Positions 29,664 to 40,085 of a stretch of 49,632 nt of DNA are shown in pieces. Origin of the DNA: Singulisphaera sp. (GTDB taxonomy: Bacteria; Planctomycetota; Planctomycetia; Isosphaerales; Isosphaeraceae); the NCBI GenBank assembly GCA_027451445.1, contig DAIDJG010000447.1:1-49632 (forward strand), read 5' to 3'. The notes under the pieces are model-generated. The model saw only the letters and a program-made list of their open reading frames with translations. It was not told the origin of the DNA and searched no databases. Made by a program: the position numbers and the translations under genes. Position 1 is the first letter of the stretch. Each line of letters opens with the position of its first letter.

Positions 29664-32048
29664 TCAATGGTTGAACAGAAACTCCGCAGACACCATCAAC
29701 GACCAGAGCAGTGATTGATACGACGCGCGACGGTCCGGCGCCGACTCAATAAACTTGCGGGCCTTCGCGACTTCGTCGCTTCGCGGAGGCCGCGCCAGAA
29801 CGCGCACGAACAACTCGTCGATGAGCTCGGTGACCGGCCGCGCATCGGCCGAAAGCCGCGCGACGTAGCCGTCCGCGGCGTTCAGCTTTTGCTCCAGCAG
29901 GGGTGAGCCGATGAGCGCCAGGGCCTGACCCAGCGACGACTCGCTGACTCGTTCGCACTCGCACGACGACGACCGTGCAGGACGGCCGAACACGTCGAGG
30001 AACGTGTTGGGAACCGCTTCGTCGGGCAGGTCGATCGCGCGGGTCCCCCGGGGGAACTTGCCCGGTCCGCCGGAGAAGTCGGTCGGCGCGTCGAGGACCT
30101 GGCTGAACGCGTCGAGCAACACCTCGGCAGACAGCCGCTTCGGGTAGTAACGCGCGAAGCTTTGATGGTCCTCGCGATTCGACTCATTGGGCACTGCGCT
30201 GAGGGCGTACGCGTCGGAGTTGCAGCACACGCGAATCAGGTGCTTGACGTCGTAGCCGCTCGCGGCAAAGTCGCGGGCGAGGGCGTCGAGCAGCTCGGGA
30301 TGCGTGGGCGGGTTGGTCGAGCGCGCGTCGTCGATCGGGTGGATCAGTCCCCGGCCGAAAAAGTGGCCCCAGATGCGGTTGGCCATCGTGCGGGCGAAGA
30401 AGGGGTTGGATGGATCGGTCATCCAATGCGCCAGGCTCTGCCGAGGGTCGTCGTAACGGCTCAATGCGAACGGTGCACCCCCCAAAGGCTGCGGTCGCAT
30501 CACCCGTTTCGTGCGGGGATGTTCGACTCGCCCTTCATCGGCCAGGAAGATGGTCTGGCTCGTCGGCACCTCGGCGTCGGCAAAGCCCCCCTTGCGGCCG
30601 ACGCGCGCGAAGACCGCGGCCAGGCCGAAGTAATCGTCCTGGCTCCAGCGCTCGGCCGGGTGGTGGTGGCACTGGGCACACTGGACGCGCACGCCCAGGA
30701 ACGTTTGCGAGATCGATTCGACATAGTCCTGCGACGTCCGCACCGCGCGGTACCAGACCGTCGGCGGGTTCGACTCCTGGGTGCCGACGGCCGTGAGGAT
30801 TTCGGTGGCGAACTGGTCGTAAGGCATGTTCGCATCGATTGCGTCGCGGATCCAGGCCGCGAACAGGCTCGTGCCCGCCCGCTGCTGGCTCGTGGAGTAA
30901 CCTGCGCCTCGGTTCCGGAGGATGTCGGCCCACTTCAGGGCAAAGTAGCTGGCGTATTCGGGACGCTCCAGCAACCGGTCGATGAGCCTCGCGCGCTTGT
31001 CGGGCCGGCGGTCGGACAGGTAGGCGCGAACCTCATCGCTCGTAGGTAGCGTGCCGCAGATGTCCAGGCTGGCCCGTCGCAGGAACGTCGCGTCGTCCGC
31101 GGGCGGCGAGGGTTCGATCCCCAGCCGCTGCCACTGGGGCCGCAGCATTCCGTCGACCCAGGTGCGAGGAGGCTGTGTCGCGACAGCGCTACGCTCCGCG
31201 TGGAACGGCACTGTGCCATGGACCACGGCGAACTGGTCGCCGTAACGCACCATGACCGCGAAGAGACCGCCGCGGGCCTGCGTCTCGATCACGCCCGTTG
31301 CACTGACTTCGGCCACGCTCGGCTCGTTCGATTCGTAGAGTGCCAGCCGGGTCACGTCACGCTGGGATCCGTCGGAAAGAAATGCGGACACGCGCAGCGG
31401 TTGGTGCGTCTTCGGCGACAGCAGCGCGTTGCCGGGTTCGACAGCGATCCGCTGCACGACAGGGTCGCTGGCTCGGGGAGGCGGAGCACCCTGAGCGATC
31501 CAGCGACGAAGGACCTGATAATCGTCCGAGTCGCCGGCGAGGATGCGGCCTCCACCGTGAGGGAGCGTACCCGTGGCCTTCAACAGCAAAAGGCTACGCT
31601 CCGGCACCGCAAGGAAGAGCCGGCGTCCTCGGGCTTCGCGGACGATCGCCTCGTAATCGTCCTCGGGCTCATAGCCGAGCAAGGAGAGGTGAAACCCGTT
31701 CTGCCCCCCGGCTTTCCCATGACAGCCGCCGCTGTTGCAGCCCAGCTTCGTCAGCAAGGGGCGAACGTCCGTGCCGAAGGCGACGGGAGGAGCCGAGGCG
31801 GCAGGCACAAGACGACACCCGATGATTAACGATACGACGCCAGTCAGCACGAGAAGGCGGATTGTCGCTACGACGACTGTGGGAGGGCGAGGCTCCGTCC
31901 GAGCCAGCCTTGTTCCGATGACGAGTCTTCGAGTCATTGGAACATCGCGAGTGATGGGGGTCGCGCCGGCGCGCGGTGATCCCGCGGCTCGAAGATTCGC
32001 CGCAGGATCAAAGCTGGCTCGGACGGAGCCTCGCCCTCCCAAATCCAT
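29664..32048 (-). CDS. DUF1549/DUF1553 protein with heme motifs, cassette B; N-terminus disturbed by a repeat
   Basis: A 794-aa protein from ATG 32048, chosen for GAGGA seven bases upstream; ATGs at 32066 and 31937 are alternatives. Residues 4-56 are encoded by a palindromic repeat (GGRGSVRAS ... LARTEPRPP). A lipoprotein-type signal (VVVATIRLLVLTGVVSLIIGC) only begins after it. Then: cytochrome-like region with CNSGGCH (Cys104, Cys109, His110; CX4CH), a BIG2-like domain (LRVSAFLSDGSQRDVTRLA), DUF1549 (TFLRRASLDICGTLPTSDEV) with CAQCH at residue 457, and DUF1553 to the C-terminus (FFARTMANRIWGHFFGRGLI). It matches the protein at 18228 domain for domain. Confidence 0.85.
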   Translation of the reverse strand: MDLGGRGSVRASFDPAANLRAAGSPRAGATPITRDVPMTRRLVIGTRLARTEPRPPTVVVATIRLLVLTGVVSLIIGCRLVPAASAPPVAFGTDVRPLLTKLGCNSGGCHGKAGGQNGFHLSLLGYEPEDDYEAIVREARGRRLFLAVPERSLLLLKATGTLPHGGGRILAGDSDDYQVLRRWIAQGAPPPRASDPVVQRIAVEPGNALLSPKTHQPLRVSAFLSDGSQRDVTRLALYESNEPSVAEVSATGVIETQARGGLFAVMVRYGDQFAVVHGTVPFHAERSAVATQPPRTWVDGMLRPQWQRLGIEPSPPADDATFLRRASLDICGTLPTSDEVRAYLSDRRPDKRARLIDRLLERPEYASYFALKWADILRNRGAGYSTSQQRAGTSLFAAWIRDAIDANMPYDQFATEILTAVGTQESNPPTVWYRAVRTSQDYVESISQTFLGVRVQCAQCHHHPAERWSQDDYFGLAAVFARVGRKGGFADAEVPTSQTIFLADEGRVEHPRTKRVMRPQPLGGAPFALSRYDDPRQSLAHWMTDPSNPFFARTMANRIWGHFFGRGLIHPIDDARSTNPPTHPELLDALARDFAASGYDVKHLIRVCCNSDAYALSAVPNESNREDHQSFARYYPKRLSAEVLLDAFSQVLDAPTDFSGGPGKFPRGTRAIDLPDEAVPNTFLDVFGRPARSSSCECERVSESSLGQALALIGSPLLEQKLNAADGYVARLSADARPVTELIDELFVRVLARPPRSDEVAKARKFIESAPDRRASYQSLLWSLMVSAEFLFNH
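31881..32040. repeat. 160-bp palindromic element inside the start of a coding sequence
   Basis: Perfect 28-bp arms (31881-31908 and 32013-32040; core GAGGCTCCGTCCGAGCCAGC) with further partly complementary sequence inside (TCTTCGAGTC against GGCTCGAAGA). It is translated as the N-terminal part of the DUF1549/1553 protein. Confidence 0.75.
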
Positions 32049-32055
32049 GACCGAG

Positions 32056-32060
32056 TCCTC
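32056..32060 (-). promoter_or_regulatory. Ribosome-binding site for ATG 32048
   Basis: GAGGA on the minus strand, seven bases before ATG 32048. It lies outside the palindromic element and so may be the original translation signal of the gene. Confidence 0.45.
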
Positions 32061-32093
32061 GTTCATTTGTAGCGTTTAATCCTGTAGAAACCC

Positions 32094-34529
32094 TTAATCG
32101 GTGATCTCCAACTCGAGAAAACGACCGATACGATGAATCGGCTCATCCTCAACGGTGCCGACGGCCTCCAGCCTCAGGAACGGCTGCCGGCCGAGAGGTG
32201 CATCGTCCGAGGCAATAACCTGGATCGACCCCGCATCGGTCTGACCGACGAACGTGACGCCACGGCCGCGCAACCCGAGCACCTCCTCAGGAGCGTGCAG
32301 CTCAGTGTGGATCTTGCCAATGAATCCATTGCGCCGGAGGGCTCGGTAGTGGATCTGCGCGACCTGTCCGCGCTTGATCTTCTTCGGATTCTTGGGGTCG
32401 AGCCATAAATGAAACGCGCCGGGGCTAACCTCGATCGTGATCGGATTCGAACAGGTGCTCACGAGCAGATCCTTTGGCTTCGCGCTCGGCGACGCTCCTG
32501 GGATACTCAACACGGTGTCCGCCTGGATAGTGAAGGTGTAGGGGCCGGGGAGCAGGTCATCGGGCACTTGAACGCTGAACCAGCCGTTAGGCTGCGAAGC
32601 GGGAACCGTCTCGACCTGGTCGCTCCGGTCGGCGGGCATGCCGAGCGCGCTGAGCGTCACGGGGTTCGTCCGAGAGCCGCGCGGCATCTCGAACGTCAAC
32701 GCAACGTCGATCACCGACCCCTGGGAGACGATCGTCCGGCTCGGCGTCGCGGTGACGGTCCAGGGAGATTCAGGGCCGGTCGCCAGGGGAACCTCCTGGG
32801 TCAAGCGCGCGGACGGAATCGGCGGCGCGCTGGAAATGACCGTTGCCCCCTGGACCTTGCGAACGAGCTCCAATCCGCCCACGTCCGCGCGGGCCATAAG
32901 GTTCAGCGCACCCGCGAAGGCGCCGGCGTCGCGGTTCGCAGAGACGACCAGAGGCACCCGGTCGACGCCTGGGCCGAACCAGACATCCGGGCATTCGACA
33001 CCAGCCGGCAGGTCCGTTGCCGAGACGCGGATCGGCTGCGACATCCCTCGGCGCCTGAGTGCAACCAGTTCCAGCAGCGCCCGCCCTCCCCGAGGGACGT
33101 TGAAACCTGACGGGTCTTTCCCACGGGCCGGCACGGCGAGCACCTGAAAATCGGCCTCTTCGCGACGCACGCTCAGGCGGTAGACCCGACGAGGGTCGCG
33201 CCCAAGCCCCCCAATGACGTTGCGCACCAGGATCAGGTAATCGCCATCCGCCGGCGCGACCCAGCGGCCAGCGGGGTCGGAGTGTGTCGTCGTGATGTTC
33301 CCGACCCCGCGTTCGTCCCAACAATCGGTCAGGTGCAGGAGCTCGCGTTCCCCTTGGCCGTCGAACACCGAGAGGGCCAGGTCGACCGGCGCTCCGATCC
33401 GTTCGCCGAACAGTTCGAGCCAGATCACGTCACCTCGATGGGCACGAATCGAGAACCAATCCCTCTCGCTCCCCTCGGCAAGCTGGCCGCTCACTTCGCA
33501 GGGCCAGGGAATCGACTGGGCCGCCTTGGGCTGGTGATTTTGCCCTTCATCACAGACGACGGGCACGTCCGTTAGCCCCACAAGTACGGGGCCAATAGCA
33601 CCGGGATAGTCAACCGGAAACGCCTCCGCGCCGACCCGGGCCGGCCGCAGAAACGTACGCAAAGCACCGGAGTCGTCCTGGTCCGGCGCACGGAGATCCC
33701 ACTCCACGCGATCGAGCGCGTTCGAAGCCGACGCGCTCGCGTCGACCAGGTTGCGGCCGAAGAGGGTCACCCGCATCGTCTCGCCTCGCTTGACCACAGT
33801 CGGCAAAGCGAACTCGATGCGAGGCCCTGTATCGAGATCAATCCGGTAGACGTGCTCGGGGCCGCCTGAATAGGTCAGGTCAAACACCCGGAGGACCAAG
33901 TCCCCATCGGCAGCGACTCGGTAGTCGATCAACGGGTCGACCCCCGAGTAACCTCGGTTCGTCGCCACGCGACGTCCATGATCGTCCAGAAGCTCGAGGA
34001 CCGGATGAAGCCTCGAGTCGAGACGCTCAGCCCACGTTTCAATCACGACGCGCTGACCACTCGACGCGTGGAACTGGTACGTATCCACAACTCCCGGCGC
34101 TTCGATGATCCCACAGACCGTCGTGTCGAGCCGTGCCGGATGTGCCTTCTCCGGCAGCCCCTTCGTTTCGGGTTCCACAATCGTCTCCCGAGGGCTCACG
34201 AAGAAGCTCCTCGGCGAGCTGATCCCGTTCATCCCGATTGCGCTGAGGTCATACAGGCCTGGCGGAACGTCCTTGGGGATTCGGATCGTGAACCGCTGAT
34301 TCCCCGTCGAGACGGCCGTGATTCGCGGATCGGCAAAGCGCAGCGACGACAGACCTTCGAGACCCGACCCCACAACCCGAATCTCCGCCTCAGTGCCCGC
34401 CTGCCCCCCCGGCGGAAAGACCAGGGTGAGCCGCGGACTGGGTAGATCCGCCCTCGACGCCTGGCACAGGGCCATGAGCCCGCAGGCAAAGGCGAGCAAA
34501 GGCATTCGTTTTCGGCCTCGATGCGACAT
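32094..34529 (-). CDS. Exported PPC-domain protein, cassette B
   Basis: An 811-aa protein, first gene of cassette B. ATG 34529 is chosen; a GTG five codons earlier and an ATG eight codons later are alternatives. The signal peptide is MPLLAFACGLMALCQASRA. Next come an IPT/TIG-like domain (FPPGGQAGTEAEIRVVGSGL), a PPC domain around residues 125-220 (VVDTYQFHASSGQRVVIETW, ELLDDHGRRVATNRGY) and a second near 350-460 (ERDWFSIRAHRGDVIWLELF), followed by beta-rich C-terminal domains. The architecture parallels the protein at 15734. Its stop is 45 bp from the next start, so the two are probably co-transcribed. It diverges from the PQQ-dehydrogenase gene at 34673. Confidence 0.85.
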   Translation of the reverse strand: MSHRGRKRMPLLAFACGLMALCQASRADLPSPRLTLVFPPGGQAGTEAEIRVVGSGLEGLSSLRFADPRITAVSTGNQRFTIRIPKDVPPGLYDLSAIGMNGISSPRSFFVSPRETIVEPETKGLPEKAHPARLDTTVCGIIEAPGVVDTYQFHASSGQRVVIETWAERLDSRLHPVLELLDDHGRRVATNRGYSGVDPLIDYRVAADGDLVLRVFDLTYSGGPEHVYRIDLDTGPRIEFALPTVVKRGETMRVTLFGRNLVDASASASNALDRVEWDLRAPDQDDSGALRTFLRPARVGAEAFPVDYPGAIGPVLVGLTDVPVVCDEGQNHQPKAAQSIPWPCEVSGQLAEGSERDWFSIRAHRGDVIWLELFGERIGAPVDLALSVFDGQGERELLHLTDCWDERGVGNITTTHSDPAGRWVAPADGDYLILVRNVIGGLGRDPRRVYRLSVRREEADFQVLAVPARGKDPSGFNVPRGGRALLELVALRRRGMSQPIRVSATDLPAGVECPDVWFGPGVDRVPLVVSANRDAGAFAGALNLMARADVGGLELVRKVQGATVISSAPPIPSARLTQEVPLATGPESPWTVTATPSRTIVSQGSVIDVALTFEMPRGSRTNPVTLSALGMPADRSDQVETVPASQPNGWFSVQVPDDLLPGPYTFTIQADTVLSIPGASPSAKPKDLLVSTCSNPITIEVSPGAFHLWLDPKNPKKIKRGQVAQIHYRALRRNGFIGKIHTELHAPEEVLGLRGRGVTFVGQTDAGSIQVIASDDAPLGRQPFLRLEAVGTVEDEPIHRIGRFLELEITD

Positions 34530-34586
34530 AGCGCGTCGTCCCACCCCAAAGACCAGCCGCGACCCGCCACCATCTTAATCAAACTA

Positions 34587-37321: not shown

Positions 37322-37666
37322 GCGCCGGCGATCTGCACGCAATCTCACATCAACTGTGCATAATAGCACGGCTACGAATACCGATATTTTGGCCCACGAC
37401 TTGCGATCTAGTCATTCCGGCCGGGTGCTTCGGAACGCGAGCCGGCATGCCATGAGCGGTTCAGCCGGCAAATCGGTTTCCCGGTAGTGTGGGTCGGCGC
37501 CGCCTGTTCGGGCGGCGAGGCCTACCGGTTCCACTCGTGGCTGGGGGGCCTCGCGCCGCTTCGCGGCGTTCCGACCCACCCTACAGAAACGTGGCGCATG
37601 AGCCACCAACTTTGTGCCGTCGCGGGGGAGCCGCGCCGGCATGCGGACAGCGTACGGAGGCAAGAC
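37322..37666. other. Intergenic region with a palindromic repeat
   Basis: A 345-bp gap. Between 37486 and 37584 is an imperfect inverted repeat beginning TAGTGTGGGTCGGCGCCGC and ending GCGGCGTTCCGACCCACCC, related to the shorter one at 2435. The rest shows no gene. ACGGAGG at 37654-37660 is the ribosome-binding site of the next gene. Confidence 0.6.
37486..37584. repeat. GTGGGTCGG...CCGACCCAC palindromic repeat
   Basis: Ends pair as GTGGGTCGG-(2)-CGCCGC with GCGGCG-(2)-CCGACCCAC. The middle carries GGCCTCGCGCCGCTTCGCGG. Same family as 2435-2480. Confidence 0.55.
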
Positions 37667-39076
37667 ATGAAACGCACCAAACGATCCCAGCCAATCCTCG
37701 AGCGGTTGGAGGATATGACCTTGCTCTCGACGGTCGCACCACTCGTTTCTCCGGGAGGTGCGGTGGTGACGAGCGAGTCGTTTCACAGGCGCGGAGCGAG
37801 CACGCACCTGAGCCAGACCGTGGAGGCCGGGTCGATCGTGGACAGCGAGCGCTTTACGATGAACATCGTTCGGGGGGGCGGCCGGCTGGCCCCGAAAGTG
37901 CCCGGATACAATGGCGTCGACGCCGAGAACCAGTTCATCCGCGCGCTCGACAGCGCTTTGGGCGCAACGCCCCCCGCCGGTGTGCTGGGGACACCCAATG
38001 CGACGGTTCTCCACCAGACGATGACGCCCACGGCGAACGGCATGGTTTTCAGCATGGAGCTCGACTCCGGGACGCATCTCTACTTCGAGTCGTACCGGCT
38101 CTCCAGCCAGTCGTCGGGAAACACTTCGGGAGCCACGCCCGCCGTGGCGTTTTCGCAGCCGGACGCAGTCGACGACTTCGTTTCCGAACTCATCGCCCAG
38201 CGCGATCGGCCTCTCGCCCAGCGCGCCGTCGCACACGCCGTCACGCCACACCGCACGGGGGCGAATTCGTCGAGAATTGGCGCCGCGTTCCGCCACGCCA
38301 TCAGGCATGCCCGCACGACGACTGCCAGAACTGTGATCGGCGCGACGCCCAAGATCGGCGTCAACCATCCGATGATAAAAACAAAAGCGATCGCCCGCAC
38401 CTCGATCCGCAATTCGGCACTGAGCACATTCCCGTTGACCGGCACGGCGACGGGCCTGGGTATGGGGGGCGCCGTTGCCAACGGGAACGGGGCGTCTGCG
38501 GCAAATGGCGCGACGGGGACCTTCAGCACATCGACAACCGGCAACACCGCAGGAAGGCTCAACGGAACCGTGTTGGGTGGTGCGTCGATGCCGAATAGCA
38601 GCGGCAGCACGGTGCTAGGCGTGGTCGGCTCCGGCACGACCACCGGAATGGGAACTTATGTGGGTAGCATCCCCAACGGCACAACGGGCGGTATCGGCAG
38701 CCTGCCGGCCTCGGGTATCGCCACGGGAACGAATCTGGGCATCATTCCCAACGGCACGACCGGCGGGATCGGTAGCATTCCAGCCTCGAACGCGAACAAC
38801 AACTTCGCGATCAACGAACCCGGTTCCCTGGTACAGAACGGGTCGTCGATCCTGACTACCAACACCAACGGAGACCTCGGCGGAAACGTACTGGGCAGTG
38901 ACTCGACGCTGAACACGACCGGTGGCACGGCGACAGGTGCACTCAGTGATGGAACGCCGACCAATGGGACAGGAACCTATTTTGGTAGCGTCCTCAACGG
39001 GACGACCGGCGGTATCGGAAGCCTGCCGGCCTCGAGCACGAACAACAATGTGGCGATCAACGAGCCAGGCACCTAG
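37667..39076 (+). CDS. Low-complexity surface protein with LEDM-LLS signature and C-terminal repeats
   Basis: A 469-aa protein; ATG 37667 is set by a good ribosome-binding site (ACGGAGG) and opens with MKRTKRSQPILERLEDMTLL, the planctomycete surface-protein signature also seen at 3049. Residues 20-260 are a mixed region without known domain. From about residue 255 the sequence becomes Gly/Thr/Asn/Ser rich with recurring NGTTGGIG(S)(L/I)PAS units at about residues 335, 363 and 443, two of them followed by NN(F/V)AINEPG. Such repeats are typical of extracellular stalk or adhesin regions and may expand or contract by recombination. No enzyme motif is visible. Confidence 0.75.
   Translation: MKRTKRSQPILERLEDMTLLSTVAPLVSPGGAVVTSESFHRRGASTHLSQTVEAGSIVDSERFTMNIVRGGGRLAPKVPGYNGVDAENQFIRALDSALGATPPAGVLGTPNATVLHQTMTPTANGMVFSMELDSGTHLYFESYRLSSQSSGNTSGATPAVAFSQPDAVDDFVSELIAQRDRPLAQRAVAHAVTPHRTGANSSRIGAAFRHAIRHARTTTARTVIGATPKIGVNHPMIKTKAIARTSIRNSALSTFPLTGTATGLGMGGAVANGNGASAANGATGTFSTSTTGNTAGRLNGTVLGGASMPNSSGSTVLGVVGSGTTTGMGTYVGSIPNGTTGGIGSLPASGIATGTNLGIIPNGTTGGIGSIPASNANNNFAINEPGSLVQNGSSILTTNTNGDLGGNVLGSDSTLNTTGGTATGALSDGTPTNGTGTYFGSVLNGTTGGIGSLPASSTNNNVAINEPGT
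38650..39076 (+). repeat. Coding minisatellite-like repeats
   Basis: Three near-identical copies of a segment encoding NGTTGGIGSLPAS lie at about 38671-38712, 38752-38796 and 38995-39039. The nucleotide sequences differ mostly at third positions, so the repeat is kept by selection on protein or is old. Confidence 0.6.
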
Positions 39077-39215
39077 GCGAGGCCCGTCCGATCCAGCGCT
39101 GATCCGTCGGCGCGACTTCGAGCCGTCAGATCAGCGCCCCATTCTGGCGAGAACCATGTGCGCAGCGGGTCGGCAAAAGGCCCGCGCGTCAGGTGGTCTG
39201 TAACAACGTATTGAG

Positions 39216-40085
39216 TTATGTGTTCAAATCGTCGACTTTAATACGCATTCGCTCATCGATTTCGAACGGGAAACCAAACGCCGTGAATTCCTTTCCCCCT
39301 CCTTTGAGATGGCCGTCCTTCGCAAGCCTGAACAGGCGATAGTGCGTTGCGGCCTTCCAGAGCATCGCCTGTAACTCTCGATCGTCGACGAGACCGATCT
39401 TCGCCGCGATCAACTTGTCGGATTCATCCCCAACCTTGGCGATTTCCTCGAGAAGCTGTTTGTCGATCGCATCGGGGACCCAGTCGCCGAGCAGGGCCGG
39501 CACCGTGGCGAAAAAACCTCCGACGGGACGGTAACGCGCATCGTCGGGCGCTTTGTGACGCGCGTTGAGCAGCTCATAGAGTTTCTGACTGACGCCTCGG
39601 AGCTGCGTGAAGGGACCGTAAAACTCGTCGAGCTTGGCGCGGATTGACTCGCGCTGCTCTTCGCGCGATTTCTCGCGGAGTGTTCGTTCGTTGTACCTGT
39701 TCGTCATCTCCAAAGTGCGCGCGTTCTGGCGCGCGTTCAGGATCAGTGCCGCAATCGACCCACACAGGCCGATCACCGAGACGACGATCGGTACGTCCTC
39801 CTCGAACCAGCTTTTCGGCTTGGGGCTATCTAACTTGCGCTGGATTTCCTGAATCGCAACAGTCAGATTGTCGAGCTTCACCTGCGTCACCGGGTCCAGC
39901 CCGGCGAGGGCGACCGACGAACCGACGACCTGGGAACCCGTGCCCGCATGCGCATCGCCCGCACGTTCGCCCTGCGTTTGAGTCTTTACCTCGGGCTCGG
40001 ATGCCAGGGCAGCACCGAGCGCGTCCGTTGGATGTCCGACCCGCATGAGGGCACACAAAAGCAAGGCTTTACGACTATTGCTCAT
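39216..40085 (-). CDS. Membrane-anchored conserved hypothetical protein
   Basis: A 289-aa protein starting at ATG 40085. Residues 1-28 may be a weak signal sequence. One clear transmembrane segment lies at about residues 97-118 (VPIVVSVIGLCGSIAALIL). A charged coiled-coil helix follows (RYNERTLREKSREEQRESIR), then a helical cytoplasmic domain beginning LDEFYGPFTQLRGVSQKLYE. A short helix after an acidic membrane segment and the 'LDEFYGP' block recur in small bacterial membrane proteins of unknown role. No enzymatic motif. It is convergent with the surface-protein gene and has no operon partner. Confidence 0.7.
   Translation of the reverse strand: MSNSRKALLLCALMRVGHPTDALGAALASEPEVKTQTQGERAGDAHAGTGSQVVGSSVALAGLDPVTQVKLDNLTVAIQEIQRKLDSPKPKSWFEEDVPIVVSVIGLCGSIAALILNARQNARTLEMTNRYNERTLREKSREEQRESIRAKLDEFYGPFTQLRGVSQKLYELLNARHKAPDDARYRPVGGFFATVPALLGDWVPDAIDKQLLEEIAKVGDESDKLIAAKIGLVDDRELQAMLWKAATHYRLFRLAKDGHLKGGGKEFTAFGFPFEIDERMRIKVDDLNT

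Follow-up and report, generated by a model that had tools for sequence, protein, structure and literature searches.

Palindromic repeats that are read in frame within protein genes have been described, in the parts of the published accounts cited here, from Rickettsia, Neisseria, enterobacteria, Coxiella, and a few others. The RPEs of Rickettsia are palindromic and similar in size to the element described below; nearly half of them are reported to lie in ORFs, each encoding a conserved peptide (Ogata et al. 2000, via PMC2229807, PMC10969869). The excerpted accounts also record in-frame fusions of MITEs and RPEs, some with predicted signal peptides (PMC10969869, PMC2229807), and a QMITE2 copy that extends the C-terminus of enhC (PMC5896051). 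The termini of GTAG REPs are described, in the part of the source consulted, as often supplying the TAG stop of flanking ORFs (PMC3733652). No description of the planctomycete repeat analysed here was found in the titles and abstract openings of the papers that the literature searches listed.

In the window, the whole 49,632-nucleotide stretch analysed (G000:C447, from a Singulisphaera draft genome of 10.9 Mb and 622 contigs), a copy of this repeat lies at the junction of two genes:

31880..32041, no strand assigned: palindromic core of the repeat, 162 bp, placed by the arm match and covariance model R1
31880-31911/32010-32041: outer stem of the core, with hairpin 1 at 31912-31943
31944-31951/31970-31977: central stem of the core, with hairpin 2 at 31978-32009
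32042..32096, minus strand: right flank of family A type, with both upstream ATGs inside it and its outer end at the partner stop codon
31860..31879, minus strand: probable left-flank remnant, its boundary approximate, with no element similarity found beyond it
32094..34544, minus strand: upstream operon partner, its native C-terminus (..LEITD*) lying exactly where the element begins
29664..32066, minus strand: downstream gene, an 800-codon ORF with DUF1549 (PSCyt2) and DUF1553 (PSD1), its predicted N-terminus element-encoded
31815..31877, minus strand: hydrophobic segment (residues 64-78) followed by SLIIGC (79-84), located where orthologues have the signal segment

The first-pass annotation had reported a 160-bp palindrome with perfect 28-bp arms. 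The palindrome is real and measures 162 bp (31880-32041), its end arms (31880-31908 and 32013-32041) matching perfectly over 29 bp and its 70-nt arms being 81% complementary. Covariance model R1, whose training set includes the window copy, gives this core 176 bits. Folded as RNA, both strands of the core lie about 12 s.d. below dinucleotide shuffles (z of -11.8 and -12.3), with energies of -120 to -127 kcal/mol; a comparison of the window with Rfam 15 gave 0 matches above the gathering score. The palindrome is not a product of chance, because a DNA search of its own genome with the window palindrome returned 158 candidates of which the best 40 all match (E <= 0.001), and because the arm pattern (<=2 mismatches) has 209 matches in that genome as against 0 for the reversed control. 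From the latter counts, the repeat has about 100 copies in this planctomycete genome. The ORF 29664-32066(-) runs across the palindrome stop-free, which upholds the earlier description of a repeated element read in frame at the N-terminus; the residues assigned to it, 4-56, become 3-57 when counted from a start at 32048.

The covariance-model search placed the repeat in at least 71 places in its own genome, all scored ones matching (the window copy not among them). Seventy-nine fetched stretches together with the window yielded 84 copies or pieces that do not overlap one another, and 73 of these are near full length. Many copies extend past the core into conserved flanks, giving an element of ~270 bp, and the flanks divide the copies into two main groups, A and B, with a few copies fitting neither, such that one core is common to two groups with different ends. 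The consensus ends are TTAGGGC..CGGGCA / TGCCC.AGCCCTAA for family A and AGCGGTTT.. / ..AAACCGCT for family B. Terminal inverted repeats are present in both families, a script having recognised both ends in 7 of 24 A copies and 29 of 49 B copies; TA stands at the family B termini in 19 of 29 (left) and 15 of 29 (right) cases, and at the family A termini in 2 of 7 at each end. The 10-column means of column agreement in family A are 0.78-1.00 across the core but fall to 0.37-0.75 in the flanks, whereas the family B core stands less markedly above its flanks, the left of which keeps 0.64-0.89.

A search of the same genome with the joined flank consensus led to 26 fetched loci, 24 of which hold the core or its pieces; the exceptions, L084 and L094, have lost most of the core. 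The latter (G000:C534:17821-17927) is a family B copy that keeps both flanks while nearly the whole core is deleted, and it was rejected as a clean empty site since core ends remain, as expected of an internal deletion. No clean empty site was seen in the genome, and no autonomous partner with matching ends was found among the 26 loci. The window itself carries a second, decayed partial core copy at 39070-39195 (20.7 bits; 63 bp at 81%); it lies past the 3' end of ORF 39216-40085(-) and immediately beyond the end of ORF 37487-39076(+).

The full core was not found in 39 relatives among the matches listed by the DNA search and the covariance model, which scored up to 21 and up to 71 candidates per genome, respectively. 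Among those listed, the DNA search gave short matches only, in 8 of the 39 genomes, and the covariance model gave matches of 53-97 nt in five genomes. The palindromic family has so far been found whole only in this genome, as judged from these sequence searches. The outer arms occur as simple hairpins (GGGAGGGCGAGGCTCC...) in relatives G001, G005, G007, G017, and G024; nine of ten inspected relative loci have the arm motif in a simple-hairpin fold, some with a small extra loop stem, and in one contig (G005:C257) the arm hairpins form a tandem array with a 36-bp step. These 53-97-nt hairpins have the same outer arms as the window element but a simple fold, with at most a small loop stem, unlike the four-helix core, which may have grown from such an arm hairpin.

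The fold of the core was examined in an alignment of 73 copies. A branched structure (outer stem, hairpin, central stem, hairpin), written down after the alignment had been viewed, pairs 93.7% of cells and shows 106 double-sided changes as compared with 45.4 ± 5.9 in shuffles (0 of 500 as high), while slid versions of it show 14-33. Much of the core covariation separates the two groups, and several pairs show three to six pair types. A single long hairpin was rejected as the conserved fold, having 17 double changes against 25.9 in shuffles. The minimum-energy RNA fold is a single long stem for the plus strand and branched for the minus strand, and the loops of the two side hairpins are mutually complementary and nearly invariant. 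On balance, the alignment points to a branched fold of four helices that the core has retained, with compensatory changes, over the 73 copies. Selection for readable core frames was also considered and set aside as too weak an effect (2.81 open frames of 6 versus 2.53 ± 0.12 in shuffles).

With genes called by our own codon-usage gene caller, 76 of the 84 copies or pieces fall between genes and the remaining 8 overlap an ORF, namely the window copy, the decayed window piece, L049, L061, L065, and pieces in L122, L123, and L135. Other copies in coding frames are rare, near-full overlaps being confined to L049, L061, and L065, the last of which shares 2 bp with a called ORF. L049 and L061 were rejected as N-terminal fusions, each having an ATG with GGAGG or GGAG 3' of the element and Pfam domains that start well past it. 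The 72-bp half copy in L135 was likewise rejected, as a CheW domain with its own ATG comes after it, and in L122 and the decayed window piece the match falls on the edge of the ORF or outside it. The window copy is thus left as the one clear coding case among 73 near-full copies. A 70-bp half copy (L123:294-363, G000:C177) is in frame as residues 98-121 of a polyketide-synthase-like ORF with ketoreductase and dehydrogenase domains that is open at the contig end; it is a possible second gene fusion or a truncated gene. Four family A copies (L048, L054, L046, and L060) have the stops of convergent genes near both element ends, so that the element fills the gap, a layout that might reflect either insertion where stops overlapped or a role as a terminator.

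The right flank of the window copy scores 42.7 against family A, compared with -14.8 ± 6.4 for random window segments and a mean of 0.4 for shuffles (0 of 1000 as high). Among gene 3' ends that face the right side of family A elements, 6 of 19 (the window partner included) have their stop exactly 52 nt from the core, which places the right end of the element there; the partner stop in the window is the TAA at 32094-32096. Because the right flank belongs to family A, ATG 32066, ATG 32048, and the GAGG at 32057-32060 are element sequence, and the earlier idea that excising the element would return a native ribosome-binding site and ATG 32048 to the gene is not supported. Nor is a start signal a fixed property of family A, as an ATG occurs at the homologous place in 7 of 21 copies and an ATG with a ribosome-binding motif in 3 (window included). 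On the other side, similarity to family A left flanks is confined to the 20 nt next to the core, where 1 of 200 controls reached the same score; over the distal 40 nt (31826-31865), 40% of controls scored at least as well. The left end of the window copy therefore appears truncated near 31860, with the outer left flank missing.

The downstream ORF matches PSCyt2 (DUF1549) with 177.7 bits (cut-off 29.8) and PSD1 (DUF1553) with 167.9 bits (cut-off 28.5). It contains no stop or frameshift in 800 codons and is 74-77% identical to its nearest orthologue, and orthologue and partner gene are neighbours in 31 of 39 loci tested. Alignment with orthologues bears out a short native N-terminus: the four closest (74, 60, 56, and 57% identity) lack the repeat and reach the conserved motif after 37-66 residues, and three of them start at an ATGA overlapping the partner stop and one 4 nt after it. 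Since that position is now the edge of the element, the native start is gone. A wider scan of named genomes, in which a single-protein query found no relative and an alignment query did, gave 80 named loci; the script recognised the partner by its C-terminus in 16 of them, many loci being left unparsed. Eight of the 16 overlap the partner stop (five as ATGA, 4 nt; three as TGATG/TAATG, 1 nt), in another three the start follows at 4, 12, or 23 nt, and one is without an ATG. Against a start so close to the partner stop, the first ATG lies 76-185 nt past it in four, and in L171 the overlapping ATG would give 137 residues before the GGCH motif, although later ATGs exist. L170, which is among the 16, shares its N-terminus with L146 of the closest four, and the two probably derive from the same organism.

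The first-pass annotation had placed a hydrophobic segment and lipobox just after the palindrome. The segment is present there at the orthologous position, whereas the SLIIGC cysteine is absent as a shared residue in the four closest orthologues, so that a lipoprotein is not established. Its hydrophobic 15-mer ends 19 residues before the motif phenylalanine, compared with 6-23 in ten orthologues, which have 32-69 residues up to that phenylalanine. The first codons of the segment overlap the left-flank remnant. The DNA of the segment does not align with the N-terminus of the nearest orthologue (z of -0.1, with 12 for the next 93 nt), and post-core codon use, at -0.17 per codon, is lower than in each of the 35 signal-like N-termini called in the same loci; given this odd codon use and the lack of alignment, it is by position that the segment is probably native. 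That it is instead a decayed left end of the element was hinted at by one score (reached by 3% of random segments and by 8% of shuffles) and by a second test (mean z 1.6 against 0.3 ± 0.4, the highest of 40 controls being 1.4). This reading was set aside after the flank was split, the distal 40 nt being no better than controls, though the odd codon use leaves it some probability.

Three in-frame ATGs could serve as the start of the downstream gene:

32046..32048, minus strand: most likely start ATG, with GAGG at 32057-32060, 8 nt upstream, both inside the element
32064..32066, minus strand: alternative, the first ATG of the ORF, with a weak ribosome-binding site, inside the element
31935..31937, minus strand: internal ATG named by the first-pass annotation, inside hairpin 1, with no ribosome-binding motif

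The full set of in-frame starts up to the motif comprises ATG 32066, ATG 32048, TTG 32042, ATG 31937, GTG 31850, and GTG 31808. Past the core only the two GTGs occur, both without a ribosome-binding motif, and there is no in-frame ATG between 31937 and the conserved motif. ATG 32048 has the best ribosome-binding site of the candidates; for comparison, such a motif precedes 31 of 62 called ATG genes (starts taken as the longest ORF) and is present in 9.6% of random 11-mers. Every candidate start is partly hidden by pairing in the predicted mRNA, with mean unpaired probabilities of 0.20-0.51.

The reading that we consider reasonably probable from these sequence comparisons is that the element was inserted at the operon stop/start junction and that the gene now begins inside it, likely at ATG 32048. 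Against it stand the surroundings of 32048, with a mean unpaired probability of 0.24 versus 0.51 around ATG 31937, and a predicted fold of -120 kcal/mol 3' of that start. The same observations favour an unlikely but still weighty alternative, in which the insertion silenced the gene: the native start was lost, folding of the mRNA prevents initiation, and the 800-codon frame survives as a relic that has not yet decayed. The RNA folds of the core, the partial burial of the candidate starts, and the odd codon use past the core are all consistent with such a loss; the 800 codons without a stop or frameshift and the preservation of the frame through the element into the hydrophobic segment argue against it. 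The genome holds at least 28 matches to the downstream protein (from the best 25 of 482 candidates scored), relatives that could cover a loss of the gene but are not evidence of one.

Translation from ATG 31937, the rescue start put forward by the first-pass annotation, would give a short arginine-rich n-region before the hydrophobic segment. The codon (M44) is in frame, is followed by MTRRLVIGTRLARTEPRPPTVVVATIRLL, and has the surroundings with the highest mean unpaired probability of the candidates, so that initiation there is conceivable, yet its upstream sequence lacks GGAG, GAGG, or AGGA and the codon itself is paired in hairpin 1 (unpaired probability 0.01-0.06), and we regard its use as quite doubtful. 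A start after the element, at GTG 31850 (or 31808), with the element as a 5' leader only, appears very improbable. Both codons are in frame, but neither has a ribosome-binding motif, GTG 31850 would leave no charged n-region, GTG 31808 would remove the hydrophobic segment, and the ten orthologues retain their 32-69 residues up to the motif phenylalanine. Finally, a draft genome of 622 contigs, several of which end near repeat copies, might contain an assembly chimera at a ~100-copy repeat; this is scarcely credible here, as 31 of 39 orthologous loci have this pair of flanking genes side by side, which is not expected from a chimeric join.

For the favoured reading, a start inside the inserted element, the simplest history is an insertion and a deletion giving an in-frame fusion. 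A ~270-bp non-coding, mobile-looking family A repeat would have entered the stop/start junction of the two-gene operon, leaving the partner unharmed because the right end of the element falls at the partner stop codon. The DUF1549/DUF1553 gene would have had its native start and initial codons displaced or lost, and the element would have lost the outer portion of its left end; what remained of the element would have been fused in frame to the old hydrophobic segment. Translation of the gene would then rely on a start within the element, ATG 32048 being the likeliest, and some 56-63 residues, those before the hydrophobic segment and at its very beginning, would be encoded by the element. The open core frame that such a fusion requires may be a matter of luck, since this frame is open in 5 of 24 family A cores, window included. 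We infer the order of insertion and deletion, the native origin of the hydrophobic segment, the start used, and that the protein is made and exported.

A broader proposal, which we offer as speculation and think unlikely to hold, is that the repeat represents a novel type of structured mobile DNA, that its branched four-helix fold with complementary loops is recognised by its replication machinery, and that the window copy has been co-opted as a portable translation start. If so, fold recognition would keep the core uniform while the flanks drift, and the window copy would supply a ribosome-binding site, an ATG, and a charged n-region to an exported protein.

Set beside known systems, for which the sources cited were available in part, the element resembles REPs and REPINs in being a palindrome beside gene 3' ends (PMC3733652, PMC3116915). 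It is unlike these 20-40-bp repeats in having 160 bp, four helices, and no linked RAYT shown, and it is not a short GTAG- or CGTC-headed palindrome accompanied by a RAYT. The genome contains nine Y1 transposase genes, one of them near a core copy: a RAYT-like gene (L073/L231, G000:C486:563-1554) lies ~290 bp from the copy and is bracketed by its own inverted palindromes, CCTGGGG..CCCCAGG. With different palindromes of its own, this sole nearby RAYT was rejected as the mover of the repeat, and the other eight Y1 loci have no core match over 14 nt.

With RPEs, compared here by description only, the element shares the character of a palindromic repeat of similar size lying in frame in a protein gene. 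It differs in that the family is mostly intergenic and has one clear coding near-full copy, which is N-terminal, at a place that has lost its native start; the frequent in-frame ORF insertion of RPEs contrasts with one clear case in 73 near-full copies, plus the half copy in L123. With the MITEs as portrayed in the cited excerpts (ERIC/RU-1, Correia/NEMIS, RUP, YPAL/RU-2, QMITE; PMC2229807, PMC10969869, PMC5896051) it shares high copy number and a mostly intergenic location, a length of ~270 bp, and terminal inverted repeats; TA at many family B termini may be a further likeness. The family is thus non-coding, high-copy, and short in the manner of MITEs (~100 copies, ~270 bp, 76/84 intergenic), with terminal inverted repeats in the family consensus, the window copy being without its left end. 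It is unlike the MITEs of those accounts in having one core with two end types and, in family A, a core far more conserved than its flanks.

Palindromes in frame are thus known from Rickettsia RPEs and bacterial MITEs, and novelty relative to the accounts consulted lies in the family itself, in the fold of its core, and in the disappearance of a native start. The ~100 copies with compensatory changes offer a data set on the fold that a small mobile repeat requires. The window case represents a less usual outcome of a known type of event: because the repeat landed exactly at a stop/start boundary, the second gene appears to start inside it, and an insertion at so tightly coupled a junction would be neutral for one gene while rewriting the beginning of the next.
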